Assembly: GCF_029962835.1 (NCBI RefSeq)
Contig: NC_080588.1
Location: 68,168,501-68,232,500, forward strand
Source: Magnolia sinica
Lineage: Eukaryota; Streptophyta; Magnoliopsida; Magnoliales; Magnoliaceae
Length of the DNA stretch: 64,000 bases
Direction: 5' to 3'
The notes below the pieces were generated by a model. That model had not been told where the DNA came from and searched no databases. It saw only the letters and a list, made by a program, of their open reading frames with translations. Every line of letters begins with the position of its first letter. Position 1 is the first letter of the stretch. Position numbers and translations under genes: made by a program. Below, piece by piece: positions 1,144-53,100 of the stretch.

Positions 1144-1204
1144 ACAGCCACTGGCTGGTGGAAATAATGGTACTGAGTAAGGCAGTCGGCTAAGCGTGCA
1201 GACT

Positions 1205-3063: not shown

Positions 3064-3485
3064 GCCGCCCTTACCATGGGGCCCACCTTGATGTATGTAT
3101 TCCATAAAAAAAGATTCAAATATGAGGTGGACCATATCATAAGGAAAAAATGGTGATTGACCATTAAAAATTTCTTATGGGCACAAAAGTTTTAGATCAT
3201 GCTGATATTTTGTTGTTCTTCTTCTTCTTTTTTTTTTTTTTGGGATACATTTAAGTTTGTGCGACCTTATCAACTGGCTGGATGGAAAATAAAACATCAC
3301 GGTGGCCCTTAAGAAGTTTTTAATGGTGGAGCATTCAATCACCACCGTTTTATATATTATTGTCTAGCTTAGATTTGGAACTGCATCATTTTTGGGCTCA
3401 TTACCTTGAAATGATCTAAAAGGATGGATGGAAGGCATGAATGTAGAATACATACATCAAGGTGGGGCCCACAGTAAGGGCCGCA
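3064..3485. repeat. Fold-back element copy C
   Basis: This ~420-bp copy has clear inverted ends: GCCGCCCTTACC then GGGGCCCACCTTGATGTATG at the left, and CATACATCAAGGTGGGGCCC then AGTAAGGGCCGC at the right. The left arm has lost the CCGTCCATC block. The centre keeps the GTTTTAGATCATGCTGATAT and GGCTGGATGGAAAATAAAAC segments around a poly-T run (3228-3241). No protein is encoded. Confidence 0.7.
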
Positions 3486-3559
3486 CCTAATCTGCTCCTC
3501 CTTGGACATGGAATCGGATTCGCAGTGACCCCTCCAGTACTGAGGTTAGTATTGGTCGG

Positions 3560-4065
3560 CTGATAGGTGTAGTGGGCCAGACCTTGATGTGTGTATTTTA
3601 TCCATGTTGTCCATCTATTTTGCAAGCTCATTTAAGGAAATGAGGCAAAAAATGAGGTAGATCCAAATCTCAGGTGAACCATATCATAGAAATTATTGGT
3701 GATCAAACACTTACAATTAAAAACTTCACACAGCCGTTGTAATGTTTATTTGTCATCCAACATGATGATTAGGTCACACAGACTTGGGAAAAATACAAAT
3801 ATCAACTTAATCCAATTTTTGTAGTCCTTAAGAAGTTTTCAATTGCGAGTGTTCAATAACCATTGTTTCTTATAGTGTGGTCTGCGCCTTAAATCTGGAT
3901 CTGCGTCATTTTCGGAGCTGCGCTCTTAAGTGAGCTAGAAAAATGGATGGAAAAAGTCCACAAAACACATTTTTGGTGTTGTGCCCTAAGTGAGTTAGAA
4001 AAATGGATGAACAACGTGGATAAAACACATGAATCATGGCAGAGCACTAACCTCGGTATTGGATG
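3560..4065. repeat. Fold-back element copy D, centre reversed
   Basis: The outer arms are as in other copies (GACCTTGATGTGTGTATTTT at left, ATAAAACACATGAATCATGG at right), but the asymmetric centre is in the opposite orientation: GTTTATTTGTCATCCAAC precedes ATCAACTTAATCC. The right arm is partly duplicated: a TAAGTGAG.TAGAAAAATGGATG unit occurs twice (about 3927-3951 and 3988-4009). The ends are approximate. Confidence 0.6.
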
Positions 4066-4194
4066 GGTCGAGCCAAATCTTGGCCCATAGTGGAACCTGA
4101 GCTGGAAATGGCCCACCTGGGGTGATTGGAATCAAATCTCCAGCCTTTGTAGCAGTGAGCCCTTGTATTAAATAAATAAATAAATAAATAATAA

Positions 4195-4440
4195 AAAAGC
4201 TTTTTAGAGCCTACCGTAATATGTGCTCGACATCCACCCTGTCCATCATTTGTGCCAACTTAGGTTAAGACATGAATACAAAGAATAAGACTAATTCAAA
4301 AATCAAGTACACCACAATGCAAGAAAAGGTAAAGATATTGATGCCTTTATTAAAATATATTTTCACCCAATAAGATTCTTCTTATATTCAATGGTATACA
4401 AACATCACAGTGAGCCTTAGCAGGGTTTCAACCATGCGCA
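4195..4440. repeat. Fold-back family fragment
   Basis: The piece has a left arm (ATCCACCCTGTCCATCATTT, CAAGTACACCACA) and part of the centre, then stops after ATCACAGTGAGCCTTAGCAG. It is heavily diverged. It follows a short TAAA run at 4169-4190. Confidence 0.4.
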
Positions 4441-12700: not shown

Positions 12701-13800
12701 AAATGCAACTTCTGAGTTTTCTTCCAGCCATTTTTGCAAGGTGAACAGAAAATTTCATCACTAAACATTCTACAATTTTCATTTAAATACTAAGTAACCA
12801 TTACTGTGAAAAGTTTCTTCGACTTCCCCAGTGCCGGTGGGTGATCTATTGCTAGCTTGGCATGACATGGGTTGAGGGAAAGGCAAGAAGGCAGAAGGCC
12901 ATGTGGAGAATGGCCCTGGTTGTGGTGTGTAGGCTTTTTGGTAAGACAACTGGAAGATGCTTCAAGAACCAAGTAAGGCAATGGACGAGATCCCCGAAAA
13001 GGGCTAGGCTGCTTGTCGTCAAATGTGCCTATTGTGTTTCTAAGCTTATGTATTGTAATTTTGATTTTCTTAGGAAGCAATGGGGGTGCCATCTCCGCGC
13101 CTCTTTGCTGTTGTCTTTTTGCTTTTGTTCAAATAATAATAATAATAATAATAATAAAATAAAATAATTCCCTCCCTCCCTCCCTCCCTCTGCTTTTGTG
13201 TTTTTTTTTTTTTAATAATAATAATATATAAAAAAATCCCTCCCTCCCTCAAAACAGGAAAAAAAAAAAAAAAACCATGAATAGCAATCAAAGTTTACAA
13301 TATGTAGATATTGCAACTAAAATGTTATAAAAATTTTTACCCGGGAGGTTTGCAGATAAAAAGGCAACCAAAACATGGTTCTTTGGGCTCTCTGCGAGCT
13401 CGTTGCAGCCATGCCCATAGCATGGGACCAAGACAGCGAAACTGTTCTCTTTTTCATCATCACTCAAAAAATCCGGTGCATGAGGTTCCAACCACCCGAT
13501 CGACCAATCGGAACCATCTGATTCCGATCCCGACCAGCATCCTCCATCAGAGGGCACCAGAACCAAATCGTATTCTCTATCAATTCTCCGTTCTTCCCGG
13601 CTCTGCCACTTCCTCTTAACCCTTCGCGATGGAGACCTCATCTTAGTTCCCTTAACAGAAGGGAACTTCACAGATTCATGCTCCCGCAGACCTAAACCTA
13701 AATCCAACGAAGCATTCAAAGAGGAACCAGAAGAACCAGTTGGTTCTTGATCTTTCCCACCCCACAACCACCAAGAAAGGCGACTGAAGGCCGTAGCCAT
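9688..13800 (-). CDS. Conserved plant protein of unknown function, 169 aa, two coding exons
   Basis: The coding sequence is join(13800..13341, 9737..9688) on the minus strand, 510 bp including the stop. The start is the ATG at 13798-13800, which opens with the Trp-rich segment SRLSWWLWGGKDQE (residues 6-19). Next come a basic stretch (SRRVKRKWQSREERR, about 58-72, a possible nuclear signal), LVPSDGG (81-87), an acidic Ser-rich part with SIGWLEPH (100-107), FAVLVPCYG (121-129) and a C-terminal SKKSLEELLSSLQNS. I recall this pattern from small uncharacterised proteins found across flowering plants, including a C-terminus of the KKY.EQWLSSLQ type, but know no function. The C-terminus was found only by looking for that tail. 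The intron is 3603 bp and contains an RTE LINE. Upstream in-frame codons to 13920 are probably 5'UTR. Confidence 0.75.
11359..12460 (+). mobile_element. RTE-type LINE remnant (reverse transcriptase 3' part), broken
   Basis: In shifting frames the plus strand reads like plant RTE LINE reverse transcriptase. MTRDTYEGA...VRTTSGE precedes the motif HLQEEIPWCILLADDS, a changed form of the catalytic FADD box. After it come SQTKTEYMECNFS, the AHRIQAG block, GNFYRMAIGPAMLYGT and a C-terminal VEWRKRIHIANTISWDKA. Stops and frameshifts break it throughout and the endonuclease part is missing, so it is a dead, 5'-truncated copy. It lies antisense inside the intron of the 169-aa protein gene. Confidence 0.75.
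11588..11761 (+). repeat. 87-bp tandem duplication inside the RTE remnant
   Basis: The segment around the LADDS box (GTATTTTGCTTGCAGATGAT onward) is present twice head to tail, 11588-11674 and 11675-11761, with only a few differences. The length is a multiple of three. It arose after or during decay of the LINE. Confidence 0.85.
13132..13275. repeat. AAT and CCCT low-complexity cluster
   Basis: AAT units (13132-13159) and CCCT units (13171-13192, 13237-13250) are mixed with T and A runs (13201-13213, 13259-13274). It is intronic DNA just downstream of exon 1 of the 169-aa protein gene. Confidence 0.8.
13341..13800 (-). CDS. Exon 1 (coding part) of the conserved 169-aa plant protein
   Basis: This exon codes for residues 1-153 plus the first base of codon 154. 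The donor is CTCCCGG followed by GTAAAAATT. Reading on past the donor gives an unrelated tail before a stop at 13288, which I take to be intron. The sequence before the donor (SANLP) joins smoothly to ESKKSLEEL in the next exon. Confidence 0.75.
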
Positions 13801-14720
13801 TTTCCGATTAAAGCAACAGTTTTCAAGGATTGAAGAAGAGTAGGACAAAATCTCCTGATAGAGGATTCCAACAGAATCAGTTTTCAAAAGAATTGCAATT
13901 AATTCCTGTATTAAAACCAAAACATGGCGATTCAGGAAAGATTAAAAAAATCAATAAAATAAAAAAAATGATACAAGATAAAGAAAGAAAGAAACTGATT
14001 CTAACAAGATGAGATTGCTAGCAAGAACCAGAAAAAAATAATATAAAATTCTGAAATTCGAGCTGCGAAATTATAGTTTGAGCATTTCCCTGAACATTAT
14101 AGTAAAAACAAGTTTCTTTTTTGGCTGGAAATCTGTTTAAAACCTGCAAATCAATCTAAAAGTGGCATGAAGGTAATTAGAAAATAAAAAACCATACAAA
14201 GACCAACACTGCCAGTGAAAAAATTCAAACACAAACAAGCCAGAAAAAAATCTGAACTTTTTCCCTTCTTAATATCTAAATTCCTAAAGAGCCTACTCAA
14301 AATACAAAATACAAAATAAAATGAAATTCCTTCCTTTTCTCTTTTCTGTAAAATCAAACTCCACAAAAAACTCCTCAAATCGAAGCCTCCGAAACCTTTA
14401 GTTCTTGAATTTTCTTTGAAATTTTGAAAAGACAAGTGTGAGAAACGAAGAATCGTTCAATCTTAAACCCAAAAACACATCTGATAGAAATTCTGTAAGA
14501 TCAAAACATATCTTCTCCAAATCGCTGGAGGAAAAAGAACCAAAAAAAGAATCGAAAACAACAAGAAATTCAGATGAAAGAAAGATCGAATAGACCGAGA
14601 ATCCGATAATCCGATCTTCCTAAAGAAATCAAACCCTAGAAATCTCTCTCTCCCTCCCTCTCTCCCGTCTCCCTCTCTCTCTCTCTCGTGAAATCAACAC
14701 TCAGAGCTTGTCTGTTTCTC

Positions 14721-15224: not shown

Positions 15225-17076
15225 GGCTGGTGTACCGCACACCAGCAATAAAGCTGGTGCAGATACGTGTCGTGCGAAGACGAGCGCCGACGCTCGTCGA
15301 GCTTGGAGTCGAAGAAACAGTTTACATGGCCCCACAGTGATGTATTTAGCAAATTTAGGGGTGTAAATCGAGTCGAACCGCGCGAGCTGGCCTCGGCTCG
15401 GCCAGCTCAGCTTGAGTCGAGTCTGAGCCAAGATCGGGTCAAGTTTGTCACTGAGGCATTCCACTGTTTGTAAAAAAGAGGCAATGATTTTCTAAGTGTT
15501 TCATCGAACACCTTCTAAGTAACATAAAATTGTAATAAAAATAAAAAATAAAAAGAAAAGAGAGAAAAAGAATATTTGCTTCATGTACTCCATCACAAAC
15601 CATCTCCATTTCAACAAACCCAACATTTGAAATGGTGGAGTTGAGGTGAGCTTTCCTTCCTTTCTCCCTTTCCGCTGGTGGGCCTTAGCTTTGGTGTGAC
15701 ATAGGTTGCAGAGAACTGATATGATAGAAATTGAGAGACAAAGTAGAAAAATAGCTGCAGAGGAGAAAGGTCAAGAGGCAATTGAAGTCATTAGTGAGCA
15801 ACATCGATGGCAAAGTAATCAATTCATCGAACTGGTTCGATTCGCATTCGATTCAAGCTGGATTCGATCTGAGTAGAGTTGAGCCGCGGCTTGCTTGAAC
15901 TCGGCTTGAACTCATTTTTGAGCTCAAAAAATCAACTTGACTGGGCTCGAACTCAGCTTCGAACCGAGTTGAATCGAGCTTCTTCGAGTCGAGTTAAGCA
16001 AGCTAACTGAGCTAGCTCGGTTCGTGTACACCCCTATTTATTATATCCACACCGTTCATCCAATTTTAGAGATCATTTTAGAGTATTAACACAAAAATGA
16101 ATCACATCCAAAGCTCAAATGGACCACACCAAAAATAGCAGAGGGGATAATGATTTTTACTGTTAAAAAATTTGTAGGGCCCACTATAATGTTTATTTTC
16201 CATCCAATCTGCTCATAAGGTCACAAATACCTAGATGAAGAGGAAAAACAAATTTCATGTTGATCCAAAACTTTTGTGACCCCCAAAAGGGTTTCAATGG
16301 TATACGTTCAATCCCCCACTGCATTTCGTAGTGTGGCCCACTTGATCTTTAGATCTGCCTTATTTTTCAGCTCAAGCCTTAAGACCAGCTCGCAAAATCG
16401 ATGGAGGTTTGGATATAACATATACCTTATGATGTGACCCACAAAACTTGCTGACATCACTACACTGGCTATATGGCTGGTGTACCACACACCATCTACA
16501 TAGCTGGTGTAGATACATGTCGTGTGAAGACAAGCGCAGATGCTCATTGAGCTCTAGTAGTATGAATTATTCCAAAGATGTCAAAGTTGCATGGCCCCAC
16601 AATGATGTATTTATTATATCCACACTGTTCATCCATTTTTCGAGATAATTTTAGAGTATTAGATAAAAAATGAATCATATTCAAGCTCAAATGGACCACA
16701 CCAAAAATAGCAGTGAGGATAATGATTTTCACCATTAAAAGTTAAAAAGTTCGTAGGGCCCACCATAACATTTATTTTCTATTTAATCTATTAATAAGGT
16801 CACAGATACATGTATGAAGAGGAAAAACAAATTTCATATTGATATGAAACTTCTGTAACCTCAAAAGGGTTTCAATGGTAGACGTTCAATACCACACTGC
16901 TTTTTATAGTGTGGTCCACTTGATCTTTATATATGTCTTAATTCTAGTCTCAAGCCTTAATAGAAGCTCATAAGATGGATGGACAATTTGGATATAACAC
17001 ATACCTCGTGATGGGATCCACAACACCCACCGGTGTCAATACACCAGCTTTATAGCTGGTGTGTGGTACACCAGCC
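15225..17076. mobile_element. Tandem pair of fold-back elements sharing an end, with nested hAT
   Basis: The composite begins GGCTGGTGTACCGCACACC and ends GGTGTGTGGTACACCAGCC, an inverted pair. A third copy of this end lies in the middle at 16475. Unit 1 (15225-16474) is split by the hAT element at 15356-16036; unit 2 (16475-17076, about 602 bp) is complete. Both inner bodies are fold-back family sequence with CACACCAAAAATAGCAG arms and a reversed centre (ATAATGTTTATTTTCCATCC). The end motif is itself a hairpin (GGTGTACC.CACACC). The open frames are not genes. Confidence 0.65.
15356..16036. mobile_element. hAT-like non-autonomous element, copy 1 (with PPR-like remnants)
   Basis: The ends are TAGGGGTGTAAATCGAGTCG and ...GTTCGTGTACACCCCTA, matching the two better copies at 38321 and 52177. 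The sub-terminal arms are dense in CTCGA/TCGAG motifs. Inside, on the minus strand, reading fragments KVFDETLRKSLP and AIDVAH recall the PPR-like pieces of the other copies but carry stops. The expected 8-bp target duplication (TTTATTAT on the right) is altered on the left (TTTAGCAAATT). It interrupts a fold-back element, so it is younger than that element. Confidence 0.7.
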
Positions 17077-17129
17077 AATCCAATCCGCTTTGGGAAATTA
17101 AAGTACTTGTCATAAAGGAATTTAACTTA

Positions 17130-17739
17130 GGGCCTATTTGGGAGCTTGGATTTGGAACCCCTTGAACCCCCTTGATTGGCAATCCTCCTGGTGTATTTGG
17201 GTCTCTCGAGTGTGAATCAAATTTAATTCAAAAATACCTATGTAGGGTATATTTACGTGGGTTTGAATTTAACTACTAAATCAACTTTAATATTCCTAAT
17301 TTGTGAGATATATAATTTTTGACATTATAGTTGTGATAAGCCCACTGAAATATATACTTTGCCTAAAAACAATGAAATTTCAAGTCTTGGAACGACTGCA
17401 CACATAAGATCGTGTCGGAGTGACAAACTAATGATTTTTAATCATTGATTAATATGGACAATGTTTGAACGGTGCTGACTTACATGGGTAATGTTTGGAT
17501 GGTGCTGATCATCATTAGTGGGTCATGCTCCCAATAGAATGATAGTGTACAGTGACACACATGTTACACTTGCAACTATTAAAATGATTTTAAGTGTAAG
17601 CCAAGCTCTCATAGTGGATTGCAGACCACCTCAAAGAGAGATTAGAAATGCCCTATATTTAAAACCCCCGATTACTTTATGCTGCCACACAACAAAGTAG
17701 ATTTGAAACCCTCTCCAATCGACGGTGCCAAATGACCCC
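17130..17739. mobile_element. PIF/Harbinger-like non-autonomous element, copy 1
   Basis: The element starts GGGCCTATTTGGGAGCTTGG and ends ...GGTGCCAAATGACCCC. It is flanked by TTA on both sides (17127-17129 and 17740-17742), the 3-bp duplication typical of this superfamily. It matches the elements at 21584 and 34993 but is reversed relative to them (ATAAGCCCACTGAAATATAT against ATATATTTTAGTGGGCTTAT). No transposase is encoded. Confidence 0.7.
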
Positions 17740-18029
17740 TTAACCTATCATAACTAAGGTCTCATCTTACATCGGTTCATAAATAAAAAATAAGTATACC
17801 CTATGATTATCTGGGTTTAATTCAAGTTAATCGCATGTGTAACGTGTACCATTTCTAAGTACCAGCGTATCAAGCATCGTACATATATGGAGTAACAAAA
17901 TAACTCCCAAAATATATATCATGAAAATACCTGCAACGTCGGATTGAGAGCCCCAGTACAAGACCAAATCGGATTGCTAACTGACCTCTGTACGCTTTTA
18001 TAGTACCGAGTAAACTCTGTTCGCCCGCT

Positions 18030-18260
18030 GTGAATGTACGTGGTTTATCCACTCCTTTCATATATTTTCCAGCCCATTTTAATGGTTGAAATCAAAATTG
18101 AATCGTATCCAAATCTCAAGTGAACCAATCTACGTGAAACAGCAGGAATAATATTTTCCATAAAGGATTCATTACAGGGATCAACCCTTAAAATTAATAA
18201 TATTTTCCACTTTATACGGTGTAGCTCACTAGAGCTCTGAATACGATTCATTATAGGGAT
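18030..18260. repeat. Fold-back family arm fragment
   Basis: The piece carries ATCGTATCCAAATCTCAAGTG with a GAACCAATC...GAAACAGCAGG arm and then a locally duplicated GATTCATTA.AGGGATCAACC unit (18168-18187, 18247-18263). It is incomplete and diverged. The open frames over it have no recognisable product. Confidence 0.4.
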
Positions 18261-18384
18261 CAACCGTTAAAATTATCTGTTAAAATATATGTAATTAGTT
18301 GATAAAATATATAAATCACGTCATGCACTGCATGGTTTACTCGGTATGTAATCGGCTCATGGACTGTGGCCTGGGTTCCGGAAA

Positions 18385-18780
18385 AGATCTATGGCCCACC
18401 ATAATGTATATATTTTCTCCATGCCGTCTATGCCATACATCCATTCATTTTGACACCTTATTTTAGGAAATGTGACAAAAAAAAAAAATCAGGTAAATCT
18501 AGATCACAAATCGACCACATCACAAGAAAAGTGGTGATTGAACTGCCACCATTAAAAACTTTTCAGGGTCTCAGAAGTCTGGATCAAACCCATATTTATG
18601 TTTTACCTTTGTTTAGATATGTGCAAATAAAAATTAAAGTGAGCCCTATGAGGCTTTTTAATGGTGGGCGTTCAATTACCGTATTTCCTCTTTTTTCTTT
18701 TTTGCTTTTTGTTTCATCTCATACCCGGTTCGGCTCTGAGGGGCCACTAGACTCACTACCGAATTCTGAGTCCTGATTGC
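18385..18780. repeat. Fold-back element copy, right arm lost
   Basis: The left arm (ATGGCCCACCATAATGTATA, ATGCCGTCTATG), the inner arm (TCGACCACATCACAAGAAAA) and the centre (TCTGGATCAAACCCATATTT) are present. The right arm stops after TGGTGGGCGTTCAATTACC and is replaced by unrelated T-rich sequence. Confidence 0.55.
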
Positions 18781-18804
18781 TTGGATTTCTGCAACACAAA
18801 GGTT

Positions 18805-19240
18805 TATAGGCCCAGCGTGATTTATGTGTTATATCCATGCCGTTCATCCATTTGAAAAGATTAATTTATGGCACGAGACTAAAAATAAGCTAGATCAAGA
18901 TATCAATTTGACCACACCGAAGAAAACAGTGGATATTGAACGCTCACCATTAAAAACTTCTTGGGACCACAGATGTTTTGGATCAAGCTGATATTTATAT
19001 TTTATCTTCATCCAGGTCATACTGATCTTATGAACGGATTTGATGGCACGATAAACATCACGGTGAGCTTTGGAAAATTTTCAACGGTGGATGTCGTAAT
19101 CCCCACTGTTTCATGTGGTGTGTTCAGCACGAGCTTTAGATCTACCTCAATTTTGGAATGATTACCTAAAATTAGCTGAAAAAACGGATAAACGGCGTAG
19201 ATATAACACGTACATCAATGTGGGCCCCACAAAACTTAGT
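18805..19240. repeat. Fold-back element copy H, complete
   Basis: Left arm: TATAGGCCCAGCGTGATTTA, ATGCCGTTCATCC. Centre: TTTTGGATCAAGCTGATATT to GGATTTGATGGCACGATAAAC. Right arm: GGAAAATTTTCAACGGTGG to ACGTACATCAATGTGGGCCC. The order equals copy A. The copy is about 435 bp and the ends are approximate. Confidence 0.65.
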
Positions 19241-20296
19241 TATGCAGGAAGCTTTCGCGTCCCCTGTGCGGCTCTGTTGTCGCCGATTTAGCGAAACGTT
19301 TTCGTGTGCGCCTTAGAAGATTGAAGCTTGGGGAGCAAAGCAATTAACGGTAGATTTTTCTATGACGACAATGCCCCTGTAAACCGGACCGTATGACGAA
19401 GAAGCCCCGGGTAAGTTAGCCGTCCGGCATCTGAAAAAGCTCATGGGTAATTTAGTCCTATTGCATTATTGGTTGTTTTGATACTCTGATACTCAGGCAT
19501 TTCTATTTGATTTAATAACCAACACCAATAAGCTTTTGTTTGTTGAATTTGAACCGTATATTAATTTGTATTTTGATTCCATAAATATCTAATTAGTTTA
19601 AAAAATCATCTGAATTTTATATTTCTGACCCATCTAAATTGGGATATGTAATTTGGACGGCTTAATTTAAGTTTACCATATGCTATGTGTGCATTTTTTT
19701 TAGTGCTTGTGTATCAGCCATCAAACTCTGCCAGAGTATCAAAGGTTTTGCTTGATACTCTGAGAGAGTGTGGTGATTCATATGCACGCACTCTGATATT
19801 GTACATGGGACACCTCGTAACTCAGATTAAACCGTTCAAATCATGGTTCCACCTTATATTGATATCCTAATGGCCAATCAGTGGACAACCAAGTCAAAGA
19901 CAAATGGGAGATAATCAATGGCCAAAAATAGACGTACAACGTCCATCAATCAAATCAAATCCGACAATCAATATATTTTCTTGTAATAATGTTCAATATT
20001 TTAGTGCATGATTCAACACAATCTGTCGATTTGTACCCTGATTTAAAGGTTAGTGTTGTCCAAACAGTGTGATTCTTGAACGATGGTCCGTTCATTGTTT
20101 GACCTATCAAATGAATGGTTTAGATCTATCACACGTATTTCAGGTGACCAATGACACGGAGGCTCCTCAGAGTCGCTGGATCTGGTCCCAACATTAATAC
20201 CCACTTGATTTCATCGCCTCTTAAAAGTTCACATCCAGTGGGACACACATAGCTATGGTACAATCTTGATCAGACGGTGATGAATGCATGTTAGAG
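19241..20296. other. Intergenic DNA with a short ACTCTG-type repeat
   Basis: No gene is seen. Around 19725-19815 the motifs ACTCTGCCAGAGTATC and ACTCTGAGAGAGTGTGGTG followed by GCACGCACTCTGATATTGTAC match the ends of the miniature element at 51505. A GC-rich patch at 19245-19440 has no open frame of note. Confidence 0.35.
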
Positions 20297-20633
20297 GAGG
20301 GTGCGACCCTGACGGTGGGGACCACTTTGATATATGCATGGTATATCCACGCCGTCCATCGTTTTTTAAAGATTGTTTTAAGATAGTGTTCAAAAAATGA
20401 AGCAGATATATATCTTAACTGGACCACACTACAGGAAACAGTGGTCATTGAAAACTCACCATTAAAAGCTTATGGGGTCTGTTGATAGGGTCACACAGAC
20501 CTGGACAAATAGCAGCTTAATGGTGAGAATTCAATCCGTACCGTGTGGTCCACCTGAGATTTGTATGTGCCTCGTTTCGAGGACTGGATATACAATCCAT
20601 GCATCGAGGAGGGGCCCCACGGTAAGGGTGCCC
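20297..20633. repeat. Fold-back element copy I, short form
   Basis: A shortened copy of about 340 bp. Left arm: GGTGCGACCCTGACGGTGGGG, CACGCCGTCCATCG, GGACCACACTACAGGAAACA. Right arm: TGGTGAGAATTCAATCC, GTGTGGTCCACCTGAG, GGGGCCCCACGGTAAGGGTG. Most of the centre is deleted. The overlapping open frames on both strands are products of the inverted symmetry. Confidence 0.65.
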
Positions 20634-20698
20634 ATACATCGAGGGTGCTGGATCCGGGGTCACAGCCGGGCGCGGTTTGGGCACCAGTCCGTAAGTGG

Positions 20699-21077
20699 AT
20701 TGCGTCCGACCTCCGCTGGAGCAATAAGCCGTCCAACCAGTGCTACTGTCGGGTCCACCGTGTATTTGTTTATCCAAGCCGTCCATTCATTTTCTCAGAT
20801 CATTTTAAGGCATGACCCTAAAAATGGTGGAGATCCAAAACTGAAGTGGACCACACCAAATAATAAGCTTAGGTTGCATTAAATGCACAAAACATTAAAT
20901 GCAAGAGTCATATTTGGTGTGGTCCACTTGAACGTTGGATCTGCCTCATTTTTGGGCTAATTACTTAAACTGATATGAGAAAATGGATAAACGGTGTGGA
21001 TAAACAGATAAATCATGGTGGGCCCCACAAGAGAGCATGTCAGACGGCTTATTATCCAGGCGGAGGTTCGACGCAAT
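20699..21077. repeat. Fold-back element copy J, nearly perfect hairpin
   Basis: This 379-bp copy lacks the asymmetric centre, so its two arms (about 160-170 bp each) face each other directly. It begins ATTGCG.C.GACCTCCGC with AATAAGCCGTC and ends GACGGCTTATT with GCGGAGGTTCGACGCAAT. The inner arms are TGGACCACACCAAATA and TATTTGGTGTGGTCCA. A central CATTAAATGCA repeat forms the loop. No protein is encoded. Confidence 0.75.
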
Positions 21078-21135
21078 GGGGTTCCACCGTCCCCACCACG
21101 ACATAGCACCTAGCTAGAGACCTAGAGTCCTGGGG

Positions 21136-21480
21136 CTAACCATGGTATGTGTATTTTATCCCATGAGACTAAAAATAGTAGGTCTTGAGTGGACTATATG
21201 ATAAGAAGCAGTCGTAACAATGACCTCACCGCCGAAAGCTTTTTAAGGCCTATTATAATGTTTATTTATTATTTAACATGTTCATAAAATCACATAGTTA
21301 TATATGAAAGAAAAGTATTGATATTGAATTGGTCTATAACTTATGTGCCCATAAAGGGGTTTTATGTGGGAATTTGATCTGTCTCAATTTTTTATCTCAT
21401 TACGTAATTTTTTTATATAATCAAAATAGATGATAGGTATAGATAAAACACATAGATTGTAGTAGGGCGCCCCACAACTG
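21136..21480. repeat. Fold-back element, diverged copy with reversed centre
   Basis: The outer pieces CCATGGTATGTGTATTTTAT and ATAAAACACATAGATTGTAG form the ends, with a reversed centre (TATAATGTTTATTTATTATT). The arms are worn and the CCGTCCATC block is lost on the left. The ends are approximate. Confidence 0.5.
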
Positions 21481-21583
21481 CCTTTGATTGGACCGTTCAT
21501 CTCTACCTGGGTCTTGATTGAAGTAGTACTCAATCGACCCCTTGTCCATATGGTGGTAAGATCCACCTTAAAAGTAAGTAGTA

Positions 21584-22203
21584 GGGCCATGGATTTGAAG
21601 GGATTTAAGGTTCAAATGCCTTATTTGTTTTGCACGTTAAGTGATTAGGGGTTTCAAATGGAGGAGATTTCAAATCCTCTTAAAGAGGAGGTTTGAATTC
21701 TAATGTCAAAGCTTAGATTATATTTAAAATCTTTATAAGAGTTTTATGTGTAACATATGTGTCACTAGGCTATTAATCTATCAGGAACATGGCTCGCAAG
21801 TGATATTCCAAAACAATTAGATTATTAACTTCAAGACTATAATTACTTTAATCGGATAATTTACACTGTTCAACCATTGTCTATATAAATTAATGGTTAA
21901 AAATTATTAATTAATCACTTGTATGTGATCTTGTGCTTGTGGCCCATTTGAGACTTAAAATTTCATCATTTTCGAACAAAAATATATATTTTAATAGGCT
22001 TATTACAACTGTTGTGTTAAATATTACATGCGTGCATTCATTAGAAATATTAAAATTAATCTAGTAATTAGATTTAAACCCTATAAATACATCATGCATA
22101 GCTAATTTTGGACTACAAAAAATTCGTGTCAAACGCCGGTGGGAATTCCAAATTCAGGGATTCGAATCCCGCGTTTCCAAATCCACTCTCCCAAAACAAA
22201 CCC
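21584..22203. mobile_element. PIF/Harbinger-like non-autonomous element, copy 2
   Basis: The copy begins GGGCCATGGATTTGAAGGG and ends ATCCACTCTCCCAAAACAAACCC, followed by TTA. The left flank is GTA instead of TTA, so one flank has probably mutated. Shared internal blocks with the copy at 34993 include GTGTAACATATGTGTCAC, GATCTTGTGCTTGTGGCCCA and TAATTAGATTTAAACCC. Confidence 0.6.
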
Positions 22204-22574
22204 TTACATTCAAAGGGGCATTTTAGTCATTTTAGCACCATCTGAATGGATAAACCAAAAGCAGCAAAAAGTCATTATGTCGTAATTCCAGTGAAAGGTG
22301 GGCACTTTACTTTTGTCCGCCCGCGAGTTCTACGAAGAAGTTTAGCCGCGTTGGAAAATGACATGGGCATTTTCGTCACATGAAAGATTCCATCAAGAAA
22401 GATCACGGCAATTGCTTTGCACGCACCATCAACGATAGTAGGGTGAGGATAACATACATCCGATTGTACGGTACCATAATATACAAGCCATCTTACCTGC
22501 CAATGTTTCACACGTGTAGGAAATTAGAGGTGTATCTCTGTGATATTTTAAGTGGGCACGTCAGCCCAAGTCGA

Positions 22575-23035
22575 CGCGGATTGCGTCCTAATTCAGTATG
22601 CTATATTCTGTGGGGCCCACCGTGATGTATGTGTCTTATCCACACCGTTCATCCGTTTTTAAGGATCATTTTAGAGCGTGAGTAAAAAATTAAAGCATAT
22701 CCAAAATTTAACTAGACCACACCAATGGAAACACCGTTGAAAACTTATTGGGAGCCATCAAAGTTTTGTATGAGCTGATATTTGTGTTTTCCTTTCATCT
22801 GTGACATGATGAACAGGTTGGACGGCAAATAAGCATTAATACGGGCCTTAGGAAGGTTTCAACGGTGGATGTCATTATTCTCACTATTTCCATGGTGCGG
22901 TCCATTTAAGCTCGGGGTATGCTTCAATTTTAAAATCATGCCTAAAGTGACCTGGTGAAATGAATGGACGGTGTAGATAAGACACATACATCAGCAGTAG
23001 GCCCCACATAGTTTACTCAGTACACGATCTGCCTC
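22575..23035. repeat. Fold-back element copy K
   Basis: The left arm has GGATTGCGTCCTAATTCAG and TGTGGGGCCCACCGTGATGT; the right arm has ACATCAGCAGTAGGCCCCAC and ACTCAGTACACGATCTGCC, inverted to each other. The centre is in the copy A orientation (TATGAGCTGATATTTGTG, GGTTGGACGGCAAATAAGC). It is about 460 bp with well-kept arms. Confidence 0.65.
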
Positions 23036-23204
23036 CTCATTCTTGAGTCGAGTGGTGGCTCACCCATATCTTGGGTCGAGTCGTGGTTCACCCGAGTGGA
23101 GGTGAGTGGTTTGAGACAGGGACGCATGGGTTTGAATCAGATTTCACTTGATGAGGACGCCGATTGTGTGGTGACCGAACACCATATAACAACGCTGTGT
23201 GAGG

Positions 23205-23615
23205 ACTCTATAGGACGCACCATGATGCATGCGTTTTATCTACCCGGTTCATCTGTTTTACAAAGATTGAAAGATATCCAAAGCTCAAGTGAACTATGCC
23301 ATGGTAAACAGTAGAGATCGAGCGCCTAACATCAAAAACTTCTTGGGAGCCACCTAAGTTTTGGACCTAGCTGACATTTGATTTTTTTTTTTTTTGTATG
23401 ATCATATATGAATAGGTTAGATGGCAAATGAACATCACCGCGGGTCCATAAATGTTTCAACATGAACATCATGTCTCCATTATTTTATGTGGTGTAGTCC
23501 ACTTAAGCTTTGGACCTGCTTTAATTTTGGGCTCATGTCCTAAAATTAACTAGCAAAATAGATGGACAGCATGGATAAAACTCATAAATCTCAGTGGCCA
23601 CTCAGTGTACGGTCA
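23205..23615. repeat. Fold-back element copy L
   Basis: Left arm: GGACGCACCATGATGCATGC. Centre: TTTTGGACCTAGCTGACATT, a poly-T run at 23381-23394, and GGTTAGATGGCAAATGAAC. Right arm: ATGTGGTGTAGTCCACTTAA to ATAAAACTCATAAATCTCAG. The flanking 23620-23670 carries AAATA-type repeats. Confidence 0.6.
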
Positions 23616-34992: not shown

Positions 34993-35702
34993 GAGGTTGT
35001 TTGGCATGGTGAATTGGAGGGATTTGAAGGGGTTTCAAATTCCCTAGTTGTTTGGCAGCATAAAGTTAACTGGTGATTTCAAATCCAAGGGATTGCAAAT
35101 CCCCATGGGTGAGAACTTAGATTACATTTATAATCATTTCAATAGTTGCAGGTGTAACATGTGTGTCACTATACACTATCATTCCATTGGGCATATGGAG
35201 AACTTGGATTATATCTAAAATCATTTCAATAGTTGCAGGTGTAACATGTGTGTCACTATACACTATCATTCTATTGGGCATATGGTCCACTAATGATGAT
35301 TAGCGCCATCCAAACATTGTCCATGTAAATTAGCATTGGCCAAACATTGTCCATGCTAATCAACAATTAAAAATCGTTGGTTAGTCACTCAGACATGATC
35401 TTGTGCTTGTGGCCCATTCGAGACTTTGAATTTCATCGTTTTCAGGCAGAGCATATATTTTAGTGGGCTTATCACAACCATTGTGTCAAAAATTATATAT
35501 CTCATTAGTTAGAGATATTAAAGTTGATTTAGTAATTAAATTTAAACCCTTATAAATATACCATGCATAGGTACTTTTGGATTAAAGTTGATTCACACTC
35601 TAAGGTGCCAAATACACTGGGAGGATTTCAAATCCAGGGGGTTTCAAATCCTGGGGGTTCCGAATCCAAGGGGGTTCCAAATCCACGCTCCCAAACATGC
35701 CC
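34993..35702. mobile_element. PIF/Harbinger-like non-autonomous element, copy 3
   Basis: The element is flanked by TTA on both sides (34990-34992, 35703-35705), with ends GAGGTTGTTTGGCATGG and CCACGCTCCCAAACATGCCC. It is 710 bp, longer than its relatives at 17130 and 21584 because of an internal tandem duplication. Repeated GGATTTCAAATCC-type text near both ends adds sub-terminal structure. No transposase is encoded. Confidence 0.7.
35111..35284. repeat. 87-bp tandem duplication inside Harbinger-like copy 3
   Basis: GAGAACTT.GATTA, ATCATTTCAATAGTTGCAGG, GTGTGTCACTATACACTATC and GGGCATATGG occur in the same order in 35111-35197 and 35198-35284 with a few differences. The other family members carry one unit. 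Confidence 0.85.
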
Positions 35703-37930: not shown

Positions 37931-38320
37931 AAGCTAAGATGATGATCTATCCACGGTTGGTAGCATGAGACCAGACATCTTTATCACTGAAACCATGGGT
38001 CCCACCTGTGCAAACGGAGTCTATCCAGTGTGCGTATCCTCAAATTATACTAAATTTCGCAACCTAGAGGCATCTAATGCCAGCATGCAAAGGCTAGTCG
38101 CCAGAAAACCCTAGCCCCTATGATATAGTGGATCTTTTTTCTTCTTCTTCTTCTTTTTTTTTTTCTTATTGAATGTGGAACATTGGCTAAAAGTGTCCAT
38201 TTGACCGCCAACTGGATAGCTAAAATTATTGCATGGAAGGAACTTCTGCAAAATGGCCATCTATAGTGGCCCACCAGAGAAGTTGGTCTGAATCACCTAA
38301 CAGGTGTGAGGGGTCCTAAC

Positions 38321-38876
38321 TAGGGGTGTACATCGAGTCGAACCGAGTCGAGCTGGCCTCAGCACGGCTCGGTCCTTGAGCCTGACTGGCCAGCTCAGCT
38401 CGGTTTGGTCAGCAGCTCGGGCCGAGTTCAAGCCAAGATCGAGCCGAGTTTGCCATTGAGGCATTTTCACAAACACCTAGACTGCAACTTCAAAATCCCA
38501 CTGTTTTACAAACAGAAGCAATGGCTTTACAGGTATTTCATCAAATGCCTTCTGAGCAACATAAAAACCAAGAAAAAAAAAGGATATTTGTTTCATGTAC
38601 ATACCTTCCTTTCCATCAGCCACACTTCGTTGAGTCATTTCATCAAACACTTGGCGAGCAACATCAATAGCAAAGAAACCAAGTCACCGTACTGGTTCGA
38701 TTTGAGCTGGATTCGATCTGAGTCGAGTCGAGTCGAGCTTGAACTCGGCTCGAACTCATTTTTGAGCTCAAAAAATCAGCTCGACTCGGCTCGTACTCAG
38801 CTTCGAACTGAGTCGAATCAAGCTTTTTCGAGTCGAGTTGAGCTAACCGAGCTAGCTCGGTTCGTGTACACTCCTA
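38321..38876. mobile_element. hAT-like element, copy 2, with PPR-like coding piece
   Basis: The ends are TAGGGGTGTACATCGAGTCG and ...TTCGTGTACACTCCTA, flanked by perfect 8-bp duplications GTCCTAAC (38313-38320 and 38877-38884), diagnostic of the hAT superfamily. On the minus strand about 38612-38671 reads [18 protein letters not shown] followed by a GTATGTAC donor-like site; a second piece reads YVAQKAFDEIPVKP. Both match the start of a PPR repeat (ARQVFDEM, AQKVFDKM). No transposase is present. The 179-codon frame on the plus strand runs antisense through it and is not a gene. Confidence 0.8.
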
Positions 38877-38930
38877 GTCCTAACACTTCAACGGGGGGAG
38901 GGGGGAAGAAAAAAGGAGCAAAAATGCATC

Positions 38931-41115: not shown

Positions 41116-44100
41116 CTGCACATATACAATCAAACAAGTGATTTGCAATCAGTACTGTAACCCGCACATGAGGAAGAAGAAGAAGGTTAGCAATTAATGA
41201 GTTGTTAAAATCCATAGAGAAAAATGGATACCTTTCCATCAAGAATTACAAGTTCGCCATCAACCCATCGTGGATTCCGGAACCCAGGTTCTGCAAGCCT
41301 GCCTTGTCCTCTATATCGAGCAACCTGCATAGCCAGCTAGAGCTTTAGCAGTTCTTCAACATTAAAGACATGTTTGCATGCGGAGCCGATCACATTGCAT
41401 AGGATACCCCATATCTCTCTCACATTGGGCAGGAGTCGAAAGGAAACCAAACGGAAAAGGGTGCCTTGTTAACATGTTTTCATTTCAACCCGGGAAACCC
41501 GACCTTGTCAAATTCAAGTTCTTTCGGATAGAAGAAAAGTGAGGATTCTCCACTGTTCCAAAAAGGCTCTAATATAGAAAAGGAAAGCAAGAAAGAATAA
41601 ATACCACTCCAAATTCTTCAGGGATGATCCCTTTATGAGGCAGCTGATTTCGCTTGCCGACCTTAGCACGGAATGCTACCTGCAGAAACCCACTGACATT
41701 TTACTACAAGAAATAGAACGGACCAATTCCCTTTGAAACCTAGTAGGAGAACATCTCGAAAGTAGTATTTTGTTTCGATCAACATATGCAACAAGGAAAC
41801 TCATACTTCACAAAGATTGTCATGCTGAAAACTCAAACCAGAGCTGTTAGAAGTTGAATCTTAAAACAAAGCTTTAACCTTTTTTCTGTTTTTTTTTTTT
41901 TTTTGTGTGTGTGTGTGTGTGTGTGTTTCTTTTCTTTCTTGCTTTCTTTTCTTCTTCTTCTTCTTCTTCTTCTTAAGATCTCGAACAGATCTCTCCCCTC
42001 TTCTATATATTTTCATTATTCTTAATGAAATAAACAAATTACAGTTTCCACAATGTAGTCTCTTGTGCTTTAACATGAGCTATGTACCCGAACCCTAAAA
42101 TGGATGTGTTTTCCGCTATGAAATACTCAAATCTCCTTTAAAATTTTCTGTTGATTTTAAATTTGACAAATGGTGCATAGAAGTTCACACCAGCCTACCA
42201 AATAATCCCAATCACCATAAGAAGACTTATTTGGCAAGAGAAGAATACAAGATAACTGATCTTTTATAAAATGAAAGCACTCCCTCTTCAAACTTGCACT
42301 CCCACTCTACAGGCACTAACAGTTGGTAACATTTTGAAACAAATCCTTCCCTGCTAGCAAACCCAAACCCACTGAGCATTGTGCAACTAAGGTTTGAGCA
42401 AACCATAAAAAAATAAATAATTGTTTGGTTTGAAAGACAAGGATAGCAACTCAACCATTGAATTTTTTTATTTTTTTATTTAAATCAAAATACCTACAGA
42501 AAGGTGATGCCCAAGTTATTAAGAGCATAATAGAAACATAAGCATCTTGTAAGAAGGTGAGCAAATTGTGGCGTTGTAAAAACAAGAACACCATGTATCT
42601 TTAAAACATTCATGAAAAACATCATATTAGCCCACTTTAGAAAAAAGAAAGGGAACCCCTGCCACTTCCAAAAATAAAAAGAAATGTTCATAAGCCCAGC
42701 AAATTTATCCATCTGACTTTTTTTATTCTTCTTTTTTCTCCTTTTTTTTTTTTTGGAAAGGTAACACTACCAGGGATTAAACCCTGGATCACTCACACAC
42801 ACTACACTATCCATCTGCATATGAAATGCCTATCGAAAATTAGTAGTGCAGACCATAGAAACACAATACCTGTCCAGCCGGTACATAAGGATCCCCTGTT
42901 AATTTCAAAGCCTCAACATACTCGTAAAATTCCAAATCTGGGGACTTCTTAGTCCTGCCATCCTCTTGCCATTGCCCAAACTTTCGTCTCAAATGAATGA
43001 TTTCTGACGTGTAAAGTCCGTGAGCACCCATGTATAGTCCTGCCACAAATGAGAACTCTTCAAGTAAATTCACAGTTACATTTGGTCTTTAGACCACAGG
43101 TACTCATACATACATGTAAGTGACAGGATTCAGTGTCCAAGACAAAAGAGCATTGGACACTGAAAGCAGTAGGAGAGTGGTACATCTGTCATTTACTTAA
43201 ACTGAAGCCAGATCTATGGTGATTATGTAAAATTCAATCACCATTGAGAGGATCTGAGGTTGGTGGTATCTCAATGCGATTAAAAACTGTCGCTCCAGAA
43301 AGAGGTTGGCGGTTTTGAGCCTGACTAAGGGTGAGATTTATCAATTCTTCAACATCTTTAAGCACCTGCATGATCATGCATAAAGTAAGTGTGATGGGAC
43401 CCATAGAAAAAGACAATGGATCCATTATCAGCATTTTCTCCTTTTTATTTATAGAGGGATACAAGGCAATAGATTCTTTAACAGCATCTGACAACACTCT
43501 TGCTAGAGATGGAGCAAGAGAAGGTCACTTGTTTTCCTCAACTCGAGCCTCTTTCACTTGTACTGTCCTTCTATTTTAACAAATTTCGCATTTTATTTAG
43601 AAAATGTACAAAATGCACAATTCAACTAGCAAGAGAGATGAGAGATATGTCAGAATAGCCTGAGATGCCGTAACAGAGCTCTTAATTTTCAGAGAATGCC
43701 CAGTATCATTTTCTTAAAGTTTAGGAACCACTCTAAAATCTTCCTAGCAGCATTATGCTCCCTCTTTAAAGAAAAAGGAAGATGAGGAAAACAAGGGAAA
43801 AAAGAAAAACCAACCTTTGCAGGGATCTTCTCCCTACTAATGAGGACCTTAGCAAGATCAGACATAACATGGTCAATACTGCGTTGACCTGGAAGTTTAG
43901 TACTTTTCTCTATAGATTTTTGCCCTTTCCCATCAGCTTCCTGCCGATTCTCATCTTTCTTTATAGAAAACAAAAATGATAAGCGGCCCCTTTTCTCTAG
44001 CCTTGCGGGTACCCTGAGTAAGTCTTTAGGAGGCATATTATTTGATAATCTTTGTGCAAGATCTCCAATTACAATTTTTACCACCATTGCTCTTCCCTCT

Positions 44101-47100
44101 TCACTAGTGTCACTAACCCCACCTCCAGCATCCATTTCAATTTCATCTCCATCACTCTCTGCTTTAAGTTCATCATCAGGCTCTATACTCTCTAACTCTA
44201 CATCCTTTTCTTCATCTTCTTCCTCTGAATCCTGTTCAAACGCCTTAAAGACGAGATCTGTATCTAACTTTCCTGATGCCACTACTTTCACGGAATTGAC
44301 CTTAAAACCAGGAATCATATCCCGCAGGATACTCTGTATACCAGCCCGTTCCTCCACCACATCAGAATCATCATCCCTCTCTTCACCTTCTTCTAAATCA
44401 CCACTACTTCTAGCAGATAAATCAGTCTCTCCTTCAGCTAACTCAGTTGAGGAGTTCAGACTGCCCATGGCGGATGGTTTCGAGGATTTGGTTAGAAAGT
44501 CTCCCGAGTTTCCTCTATTCCGTTTCAAGTAGACTGCCTGGATAGTAAGTGACTTCACTTAGTCAGAGGATCAACATTTAGCCACTTTGGAAACAAACGC
44601 TTCTCAAATTATGATCACATGTAAAAGTTACTAAAAAGTAGTGGGCAGAAAGCATTCTTAAAACGAAAAAGAAAATGAAGTAATAAGAACACAGAAAGAA
44701 TAGCATTTATCAAAGAGCAGATGGGAAAATAGTCTCAAAATTGTGAACTGAAGCTTTTTAAATTTATTTTATAGGTGATTTGGTAATGAAGGATTATAGA
44801 AACCATAGCCATGCTTACGCACCTCTTTCCTGAAAAATTAATTGAGTGGCTAGAAGTTCGAAGATGCAACCATTTTCTGAAACTAGCAGCATGAGACAAA
44901 GGAATGCTATGAAGTAATAGATTCATAATAATGAGCCATATACAAATAACCACAAATGCTCGCTCCAGCATATTACAGAGATAAGAATCAAACTAGCAGT
45001 TATTCTCCACTAAGGAAGCCAGCAACTAACTAATTAAAAAAACTACCTAAACCAGAAGCTATTGCTTTGCCAGAACTAGGTCAAAAAGAAAAAAGAGAAA
45101 ATTACAGTCAAACACCCTTATTTGTGGTATAATTACGGTTATCCGCCTAGTCATCACCTAACTATACGTATACCCTAAGAATTTTACAATACTTTCTTTT
45201 ATACACTTAGTCAAAAAGTCAACAGATAATCATTTAAATGACCAAAATGCCCTTCTTAACAAAACCACGAATGTGTCCCCTCCCTTCTCTCTCAATCTCC
45301 AGAATAGTTTACCACACCTATTTTAGGCACTACGTATGGGCACACTATGTTCTATGTATGACATCCAATACATCCAGCATCTAATAAACCTTATATCCAC
45401 CATGCATCCAAAAGATCAACCTGATTTTAAAAATAAATAAATAAATAAAAACCAGATGAGCTACACCACTGGGAACAATTTCAAAATTATGGCAAAAATG
45501 TCTGTTCTCACGTTCCCCCCTGGTGAGCCACACCTCATGAACGGGTTTGATGGATTATACACAGCATGGTGGCCCCACACAGAAACCTATGGTTGGCATC
45601 CCATGGCCATAATTACCAGTGGTGTCTCCCACGTGAGTTATGGATCTTCTTGGTTTTTGGCCACATGGTCAAGCTTTGAGGGGCACACCTTATGGACTGA
45701 TTGGATATCTTACAGACAAGATGGAGGCCCCACAAAGCTAGGATGTTGTATGCACTGCATAGAGGAATGGGCTTGCCTGACTACATGTAATCACATGGAG
45801 GCTTGATTTGTGCTGCCCCGAGCACCAAATGGGATGAACATGAATCAGATGCACCCGGTCTATCAAGTGAGCTGCCACATTTTCACCATGGATCCTGAAA
45901 ATCAGTCCAATTCGAGACTTATGTGGGCCGCACCATAAGGATCAGTGTAAAATCATGCCTAAAACCTTTAAATTCATGAGGTGTGGCCCATGTGAGTGTG
46001 TGGAATGTCATGATTTTTGGAGCGTCCCTTCATCCTCATGTGATGCAGGCCCAAGGCCCACTATAGGGCCCAATGATGTAAGCCCACAACACACCTAGGG
46101 CCCAACATGTGGTGATTTTTTTACTGTTTATTTATAAATTTGGAGGCCTAAATCAGGGATTGTAATTTACTATTTTTTGGAAAATATAGGGGCTGATTTA
46201 AAGATGGGATTGAATATTTGAGGGGGATGCGATTGAAGATATGAGATAGATTTAGAGATGTCATTAGGATTATTTTCTATATTTGCTTTTACTATTATTA
46301 AGCTTCTACCATTTTAGGAATTCACTTAGAATCTGGGGGGTAGTCATTCGTCATTCCAAATTTTTCTAAGTGGGGGTTCTTTTCTTAAGAATTGTAAGAA
46401 GATGCTTGGTGTCAATAACATTATTTCTCCCTCTCTAATTCTTGTCTACTTCTTTGCAATCCGGTGTTGATATCTCATTGATTTGATAACTAGGTTGTAC
46501 CATTTTGGTATCAGAGCGAGTGATTATTGGGGAACTATTGACCATACATTATCTCCTAATGGCTTGGAAGGAAGTGACACAAGAAAAGTTTGTGCAAGTA
46601 ATCCAATTCATCCACACATCCACGAAGTGTGTACATCAACTCACATATGTGGTAGGCAATCTCACTGATCAAGTGGGAGAGATCTAGCATGAAGAGAATT
46701 TGGAGAGTGAAGTTGGAGCGCATGGACACGCAAGGGAAGGTCCCCACCAAGGTCCTAACCAACAACAAATAGTCACAGCTTATGAAGACACCAAGGATCG
46801 AATCCTTCTATTGTTGGAACACGACAGAGAATCCAAAATTAAACTAAAAATTCCAGAAACGGCGAAGAGATCCACAGAGTTAAAGAAAAAGTTGAGATCG
46901 GAAGTGATTGATGCATTAATGTTAGACCTACATTTGAATTTGCTAATGGATCAATTGATGGATCCACCGATATTGGCAATCACATTGATAGACATGCAAA
47001 TAGGTCTCAACGCTCGAATTGAAGCACCTTTGCAAAAGATGATTGTGGCATGAAAAGCACAGCAAAGGTTTAAAGATCCATTAGAAGAAGAAGAAGAATC

Positions 47101-50100: not shown

Positions 50101-53100
50101 TAGAAGGAGCAGGACCATACTATGGGATCAAGTATTGGCATGCCAAGCTCAATGAGAGGCATTTTAGCATTTTTCTACTAAACAATTACAGAGAAGAACT
50201 CGAAACATCTCCCTCAATCAGCTAGAATGCAGACACAGATTAGCAATTACTTGTTAACTCTGTAAAGGTAGCTGGGATAGATGGACATGGAATTGTTCAA
50301 AAAAGAAAACACAATAAAAAAGAACAAAAAAGGATATTGACGGAGCAAGGGAAAATATCTATTACTTATAAAATCAAAGGCCATTTCACAAAATGAAACC
50401 TTTTCTCTCATCTTTTTCTCCTCTTTTGATAAAACATAGATATGCATGAATGTGGGTCAAATCCAGGCCCGCAGAATCATGGCCCAAAGGCATCAAAGCG
50501 AGCAGACATGAGGACCCTTTAAGATATCAATCTCCGTGCACCTTACCATGCTTCCTTCATTCACGGTTATAATCCAGAGCATCGGCTTATTGTACACAGA
50601 GACCCGAAAACAACAAAATATAAACATATATGAACTGCCACAAAGCAGAAAAGAGGTGGGGAAGAACAAAAAGGCAGAAAAAAAAAATGTACGGGTGTGA
50701 AAAAAATAAAATAAAAATTTTCAAAATACTGAAAGACCCCTTTAAGGTTCCCACTACAAAATTTTTGAAGATGTTGATGGTAGCTGCTGTTAAAATTTGA
50801 CTCTCAACGATTTTTGCGAAAGGCATCAAGCTTTCACCAGAACAAGCTCCTTGTGTTTGGAAGTTGAGGAATCTATAGATCATATGCTTCTTCTGTACGT
50901 TACAGTTCAATTAGGATGGTGTGGAGTCATTCTTTCAAGTTGTTTGGAGCAAATTGGGTGCCTAATGGACCTCTGGGTGAGAGTCGATAAAGGGTGGTCA
51001 GCAGAGCATTTTCCTAGTAAAGGGAACATTTTTCAGAAGATGGTTCCATATACCATGGGTAATGGGAAGAATGAAATCAGAGGGTGTCCAAAACAAGAAT
51101 TCGTCAGTGGAAACTATTAAAAGAAGAATTGTATATACAATCATGGATCAGGCTTGCATAAGGCCCGAATTCAAAGGAGACCAAATTCTTGGGAGATTGG
51201 AAAACAGTGATTAATGGTAGAGTGAGGAAAGTAAAAGTCAAAGGTTGATGGAGAGTGTGACAAAGGGGAAATCATGTAAATGAATGTATGACAATTCTAT
51301 GTGAGGACCTTCAAACAAATAAAAATGACCCATAATCAATAAATCATATAGATCTACGTTAGGATAGGCAAATTTGGTGTAAAGTGAGTACAGCAGTGGA
51401 GGCCAGTCTTTATCAGTTCAGAGGTAGGCAAGAACTGTGTTAATTTCAATGTTAAAATACCTCACAAGACTTCCAACGTAGGGCCAAAAGGCCAGGACTT
51501 ATTTGACACTCTAGAAGCATATGATGCTTGATATGCATGCACTTTGAAACTGTACATGTTGTATGCATTAACTCGAAGCAAACCAACTATATTGTGGAAC
51601 ACAATGACCCTAAGAAACAGTCCCAAAATCAAATTGATTAACCAATCCTAACCTCTTATTCACGGCCACTTGTTTGTCGAAATAAACCAGTAGTATTTAA
51701 ACTGTCCAATTAATGTCCACCAATCTGGTAACTAAATAATCAACTAAAACTAATATTTGGTTCATGACACATTAAACTGGGGCCCATAATTTAGAAGATT
51801 TAATTTGATTAAATTGTATGCCACTTGTGCAATTTCTTAATAATTTCTAAGTGCGTGCCATCCATCACTCTCTGCCTGAGCATCAAAAGTTTTTTCTCCC
51901 TGGTGTATAAATTGGTTTTCCCATTGTCGTGACTCAGGATCCAGCATGAGCAGCCGCTCACCAGGGCCCATATGATGGCATGGTCCAATGATTGGAACCA
52001 TTCATGTTGTGGACTCTATACTACACAGGCCGCTGGAAGAATCTTACAATGAATGGATTGATGGACATTGGAAAGGTCAAAAATGAAAATCATCTAATGA
52101 TCCTACAACAAACAAGTTTCCACGAATCAAAGGGTGGGACTGTTCAGTCAATCTGATTTTGCAACTACGTCTTAGCTGGGGGTGTACACAAACCGAGCTA
52201 GCTCGGTTGGCTCGCTCGACTCGACTCGGTTCAAAGCTGAGTTCAAACCGAGTCGAGCTGATTTTTGGAGCTCGAAAACGAGCTCGAGCCAAGTTCGAGC
52301 TTGCCCCAGCTCGACTCAACTCGGATAGAATCTAGCTCGAACTCGGCTCGACCCGGTGCAGGGGTATATATACCCTTCCAAAAAAAAAAAAACCCTACTA
52401 ACCTTTACTCATTTTCCCTCACCCAGCCGCACGAACCCTAACCCCTTTGGCACTTTCCCTTACTTGGCGCCCCTAAACCCTAACCCGAGCTCGAGCTCCC
52501 CTCTTCCGATCTTCCTCCTCTCTCTCTAGTCTCTCCTTCCTCTCTCAAGCGCTCACCTCGGTCTTCCTCCTTTTAATATTGATGTTGCTCACCAAGTGTT
52601 TGATGAAATGACCCAACGAAGTGTGGCTGGTGGCAAGGAAAGGTATGTACGTGAAACAAATACCCATTTTTTCTTGGTTTTTATGCTGCTCAAAAGGTGT
52701 TTGATAAAATAACTGTAAAACCATTACCACTGTTTTACAAACAGATTTTGAAGGTGCAGTCCAGGCATTTGTGGAAATGCTGCGCAGGCGAACTCAGCCC
52801 GATCTTGGCTTGAACTTGGCTCGAACTGGCCCGAGCTGCTTACCGAACCTAGCCGAGCTGGCCAGTCAGGCTCGAGGACCAAGCCGAGCCGAGTTCGAGC
52901 TGAGGTCAGCTAGTGGCAGAGCCGAGTCGAGCTGAGGCCAGCTCAACTCGGTTCGACTCGATGTACAACCCTAGTCTTAGCAATTTAGCAATATTAGGTG
53001 TTTGTGTGGGTGTGTTGGGGAGGGAGGACACCATGGTGTCTATATACCATCCAACCCATGCATCATGTGCACCTCGCTAGAATGAAGCCATGAAGGGAAA

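Follow-up and report, generated by a model that had tools for sequence, protein, structure and literature searches.

The window analysed here, 64 kb of contig C16 from a genome of 1.84 Gb (G000), contains three related transposon copies, and two of them, at 52177-52973 and 38321-38876, are whole transposon insertions. From the comparison of sequences we favour, with moderate confidence, reading their family as a Pack-hAT-like large MITE whose interior descends from part of a PPR-type gene of the host and has been unconstrained since, the leader in front of it being a separate block. The element would be a non-autonomous member of the hAT superfamily, whose ends, with GAGCTCGAG-rich subterminal DNA, would be used by a transposase made elsewhere. 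The interior would represent two or three repeat units of a PPR-type gene, probably taken up in a single capture before the family spread; evolution after the capture would have gone on without protein constraint, and the TATA/telobox/CT-rich module would have entered or left the element as a block of its own.

The three elements (15356-16036 and 38321-38876, both on the minus strand, and 52177-52973 on the plus strand) have the end sequences TAGGGGTGTA / TACACCCCTA in common. A scan of the 64 kb with 12 letters on both strands, allowing up to 2 mismatches, gave 7 places, 6 of which were the two ends of the three elements and 1 a stray match (60028). The 52177 element carries the leader module and PPR-like pieces between the ends TGGGGGTGTA / TACAACCCTA, and is flanked by an exact 8-bp target-site duplication, GTCTTAGC, at 52169-52176 on the left and 52974-52981 on the right. 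The 38321 element is without the leader module, holds its PPR-like pieces on the minus strand, and is flanked by the exact duplication GTCCTAAC (38313-38320 / 38877-38884), which differs from GTCTTAGC. Aligned to the 52177 element as query, it matched at positions 3-165, 401-717 and 755-797, with 82% identity over 401-717. The 15356 element, which has the common ends and a decayed PPR-like part, matched at 3-165, 503-568 and 752-797, and no 8-bp duplication was recognisable beside it (best 4 of 8 letters at 16 offsets tried). An earlier note on this DNA had described three elements with common ends at these coordinates and two perfect, different 8-bp duplications, and both descriptions were borne out by inspection and the end scan. 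Its further statement that the elements transposed as units holds for the 52177 and 38321 elements and not for the 15356 element, with its lack of a recognisable duplication.

Searching the host's own genome with the DNA of 52177-52973 gave 49 match rows, which we grouped into at least 40 places, query included; the count is a lower bound, since 40 of 8965 first-look candidates were scored. Among the matches listed, 36 of the 40 places cover at least 727 of the 797 bases (the query and 35 others at 76-86%), one matches 3-568 with small pieces near the other end, and three match only 5-165/181 (76-78%) and 396/401-797 (89-90%). The scored places are spread over many contigs. These matches across 40 places, 36 of them near full length, indicate a dispersed, non-autonomous family. 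The further genome copies that the earlier note had proposed to look for thus came to light with the whole element as query, and its idea that a non-autonomous element with hAT-type ends had multiplied was supported by the genome matches, the end scan and the duplications.

Seven copies beyond the query were examined as loci L002-L008, the 52177 element being L001. Short terminal inverted repeats are, in general form, a feature of the hAT superfamily, and repeats of this type, TAGGGGTGTA / TACACCCCTA, were found with no more than 2 changes per end in all ten elements (L001-L008 and the 38321 and 15356 elements). When 16 offsets were tried per pair of ends, the 8-bp duplication was exact in four of the ten (L001, L003, L007 and 38321), had one mismatch in five (L002, L004, L005, L006 and L008) and was absent in one (15356). 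L002, L004 and L007, at 40.67-40.70 Mb of contig C18, have common flanks that are about 91% alike, indicating that one insertion was multiplied by duplication of its C18 region, so that the ten elements amount to eight independent insertions. With 15356 left out and gaps not counted, the nine aligned elements are 84-93% alike; they are 556-889 bp long, and CpG transitions make up 160 of their 482 differences from the majority sequence. The family is therefore short, present in many copies (at least 40 places) and without coding capacity, as judged from the silent changes below, all of which are marks of a MITE. Among the paper titles listed in literature searches, none names it.

The leader module lies on the plus strand at about 52342-52576 of the longest element in the window. 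It contains TATATATA at 52365-52372, the telobox AAACCCTAA at 52475-52483 and a CT-rich tract at about 52498-52574, so the telobox and CT-rich leader described earlier for this element were both found by reading the sequence. The module is missing from the 15356 element, from the 38321 element (query 166-400) and from 3 of the 40 scored genome places, where about 166/182-395/400 is replaced by 21-43 other bases. Its absence from the 38321 element and the three genome places indicates that copies have either the entire block or none of it, and the leader, with its TATA, telobox and CT-rich parts, is a module separable from the PPR-like part. TATATA is present in 8 of the nine aligned copies, the exception being the 38321 element; the scored genome matches are biased towards copies with the leader, because the query carries it. 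The telobox AAACCCTAA was not enriched in the window (3 matches; 3 or more in 9 of 100 shuffles). A scan for bacterial promoters and terminators, a method designed for bacteria and not for plants, gave nothing.

Behind the leader, three PPR-like stretches follow each other in order on the plus strand. The first (52572-52642, 23 residues) is followed by GTATGT at 52643-52648, the second (52679-52743, 21 residues) lies in another frame, and the third (52744-52797, 18 residues) lies in the third frame of the 52177 copy; in the majority sequence of the nine copies, the second and third stretches share one frame, so that two frames suffice there. The VFDEM-like units one and two are 99-102 bases apart in all nine aligned copies. 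A PPR unit has 35 residues, or 105 bases, and the observed spacing is near this value. The pattern used for these units was loose, as many as 9 of its 27 letters being free to differ; it has a third match 72-73 bases further on in 4 of the 9 copies. At the DNA level, the first two units of the 38321 element resemble each other, with a score of 41, whereas none of 500 letter shuffles scored above 32. The claim that every element carries VA.QVFDEM is right for the 52177 and 38321 elements, whereas the 15356 element has a decayed and split version.

We compared the translated interior with protein families. A majority peptide, made by joining two frames by hand, matched in Pfam PF13041 PPR_2 (3.5e-4), PF01535 PPR (6.2e-3), TAP_C (0.034) and PPR_1 (0.097), and in NCBIfam TIGR00756 PPR (2.2e-3, under the curated cut-off), whereas six shuffles and one reversal of it, the 7 controls, gave no PPR match. 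A peptide modelled on the 38321 element, with one stop read as Q, matched PPR_2 at 1.4e-3 and PPR at 0.042. The gathering scores were not reached (PF13041, 21 bits against 30; PF01535, 17.2 against 25). The stronger PPR match is dependent on the hand-joining of two frames: the two longer unjoined majority peptides had no PPR match, and neither did the three peptides of the 52177 copy in Pfam, the first stretch having no Pfam match at all on its own. NCBIfam gave no match for two single peptides. Among five single short pieces, two matched PPR in Pfam at 0.19-0.24 (the majority version of the third stretch alone matched PF13041 at E 0.19) and three did not, and for single pieces UBA_8 and TAP_C scored equally well or better. 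TPR is a helical repeat related to PPR. In the PDB comparison, the hits of the joined peptide were for the most part designed TPR proteins, the best at 0.029, together with two chains of sodium channels near 2. A single piece hit designed proteins and nothing else, chiefly TPR of consensus or engineered type, with 3.5e-6 over 18 residues as the best value; such matches neither prove nor exclude PPR. The PPR-like character proposed for the interior was thus weakly supported by the joined-peptide scores and weakened by single pieces with low matches or none, all under the cut-offs. On balance, the layout and these scores make a PPR origin of the interior probable.

Alternatively, the interior could be what is left of the autonomous hAT element's own sequence, with its promoter, leader and first transposase exon, in which case the family would be an ordinary deletion derivative and the likeness to PPR would be due to chance. 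A TATA box and a leader, with a short open stretch behind them, do look like the start of a gene, and the low PPR scores of the single pieces agree with this; however, the interior peptides, short as they are, matched no hAT transposase family, the three PPR-like units stand in order at near PPR spacing, and the joined peptide scored as PPR where none of its 7 controls did. We consider this origin unlikely.

To the question of whether the copies maintain a protein, the changes among them gave an answer. Counts were made over nine aligned rows, three of which represent one insertion, with 15356 left out, the majority sequence standing for the ancestor and the expected silent share derived from the alignment's own change rates. 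The first stretch had 23 changes from the majority, of which 10 each fell on the first and second codon positions and 3 on the third; 3 of the 23 were silent (22% expected) and 4 created stops. In the second and third stretches together, 20 of 64 changes were silent (29% expected) and 14 were stops. There was thus no excess of silent changes in the PPR-like stretches of the nine aligned copies, indicating that no protein is maintained by them, and a conserved protein in these rows was rejected. Conservation of the VFDEM text as protein among copies had been set beforehand as a test of the gene-capture reading, and it failed in both regions. The result speaks against a maintained protein and not against a past capture, since a captured fragment without function would give the same picture. 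Divergence in 40-base steps was lowest at majority positions 400-560 (52577-52736), with 0.033-0.044 per site compared to 0.051-0.109 elsewhere and 0.040 in the last 25 bases. This zone is the join of the leader with the first and second stretches, and its low divergence does not fit simple neutrality; fewer CpG sites may be the cause.

The same neutrality would be expected if the interior were unrelated filler DNA of a MITE, its PPR-like text and its splice- and promoter-like signals having arisen by chance. The stops among the changes, the insignificance of AAACCCTAA in the window and the mostly negative searches with single pieces are all in keeping with filler; but capture, too, would leave copies that evolve neutrally, and the ordered units and the joined-peptide score are at odds with it, so that filler seems to us an improbable account. 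Compared with both, capture of a PPR-type gene fragment remains the reading that we prefer.

GTATGT directly behind the first stretch is kept in 8 of the 9 copies and lost in L008. It had been taken for a splice donor right behind the VFDEM piece; the position at 52643 is correct, whereas its role as a donor is put in doubt by the roughly 100 bases behind it, which contain the second VFDEM-like, PPR-like unit. Because of this unit, exon, donor and intron are not the simplest reading, and a captured intron behind GTATGT, which would itself hold the second PPR-like stretch, is disfavoured and on these grounds unlikely. Shared descent of the copies means that the preservation of GTATGT says little. 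It is very doubtful that a single PPR gene supplied leader, exon and splice donor in one capture, as the earlier note had it, and that the copies could serve as mobile first exons. It would suit this reading that TATA is followed by the CT-rich leader, the open stretch and then GTATGT, that GTATGT is kept, that divergence at the join is low and that a Pack-hAT of maize provides a splice donor (PMC8903248), but the leader is separable, PPR-like DNA lies behind GTATGT and silent changes are not in excess. We regard it as highly improbable that a large hAT MITE family, built by shuffling of modules between sub-families, distributes a complete gene start (TATA with telobox and CT-rich leader, then a PPR-like exon and a splice donor) through a plant genome, some copies driving new first exons of neighbouring genes.

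Capture of gene pieces had been thought less well known for hAT elements, and cases in print (PMC8903248, PMC2528002) make it less unusual than that. Pack-TYPE hAT elements (Pack-hATs) with captured genes exist in maize and rice, and the maize hAT and PIF Pack-TYPE elements form large clusters of more than 100 elements (PMC8903248). The present family resembles the Pack-hATs in its hAT ends, 8-bp duplications, presumed gene-derived interior and large cluster; it differs in that the captured genes were identified there (PMC8903248), whereas here, with at least 40 places, the PPR origin is what we infer. In grapevine, Hatvine-6 comprises hAT elements with genic interiors and Cactavine-5 is a CACTA element carrying part of a PPR gene (PMC2528002); the first is similar as a hAT with a genic interior and the second as a plant DNA transposon with part of a PPR gene. 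The grapevine PPR piece, however, belongs to a CACTA and not to a hAT, and a transposase coding sequence is common to the Hatvine-6 elements. BniHAT-1/2 of Brassica nigra are plant hAT MITEs (PMC7385995), alike as high-copy, non-autonomous hAT elements. If the PPR origin is true, the family would add a further hAT capture of a gene piece beyond rice, maize and grapevine, with inner modules that come and go as blocks; if it is false, this would be an ordinary hAT MITE family.

The 15356 element shares its decayed and split PPR-like part with the 38321 element and has about 170 bp (15622-15790, approximate limits from the alignment) without counterpart there. This part includes, after a GCAG, the open stretch RTDMIEIERQSRKIAAEEKGQEAIEV, which is protein-like to the eye; the whole peptide matched DUF7428 at 0.14, none of its PDB hits was better than 1.2, and a shorter piece gave no match. 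A second captured gene, read as SQTISISTNP...RTDMIEIERQSRKIAAEEKGQEAIEV across a supposed intron, was rejected, as its first part aligned as the decayed VFDEM stretch in antisense.

Elsewhere in the window, an open frame on the minus strand at 43689-44558 is likely a host gene, which we take to be similar to EXECUTER proteins; it had no Pfam match above the cut-off. The same search gave no match above the cut-off for a 217-residue open frame at 13288-13941 (minus strand), with the possible protein start MATAFSRLSWWLWGGKDQEP. Repeat blocks, among them TCTGTGGGGCCCACC... and ...GTTTTGGATCAAGCTGATATTTG, recur in many diverged copies (about 60-83%) at 700-4300, 16022-23600 and other places, and an inverted pair of 446 bases (17165-17610 / 35198-35643), 83% complementary, lies 17.6 kb apart.
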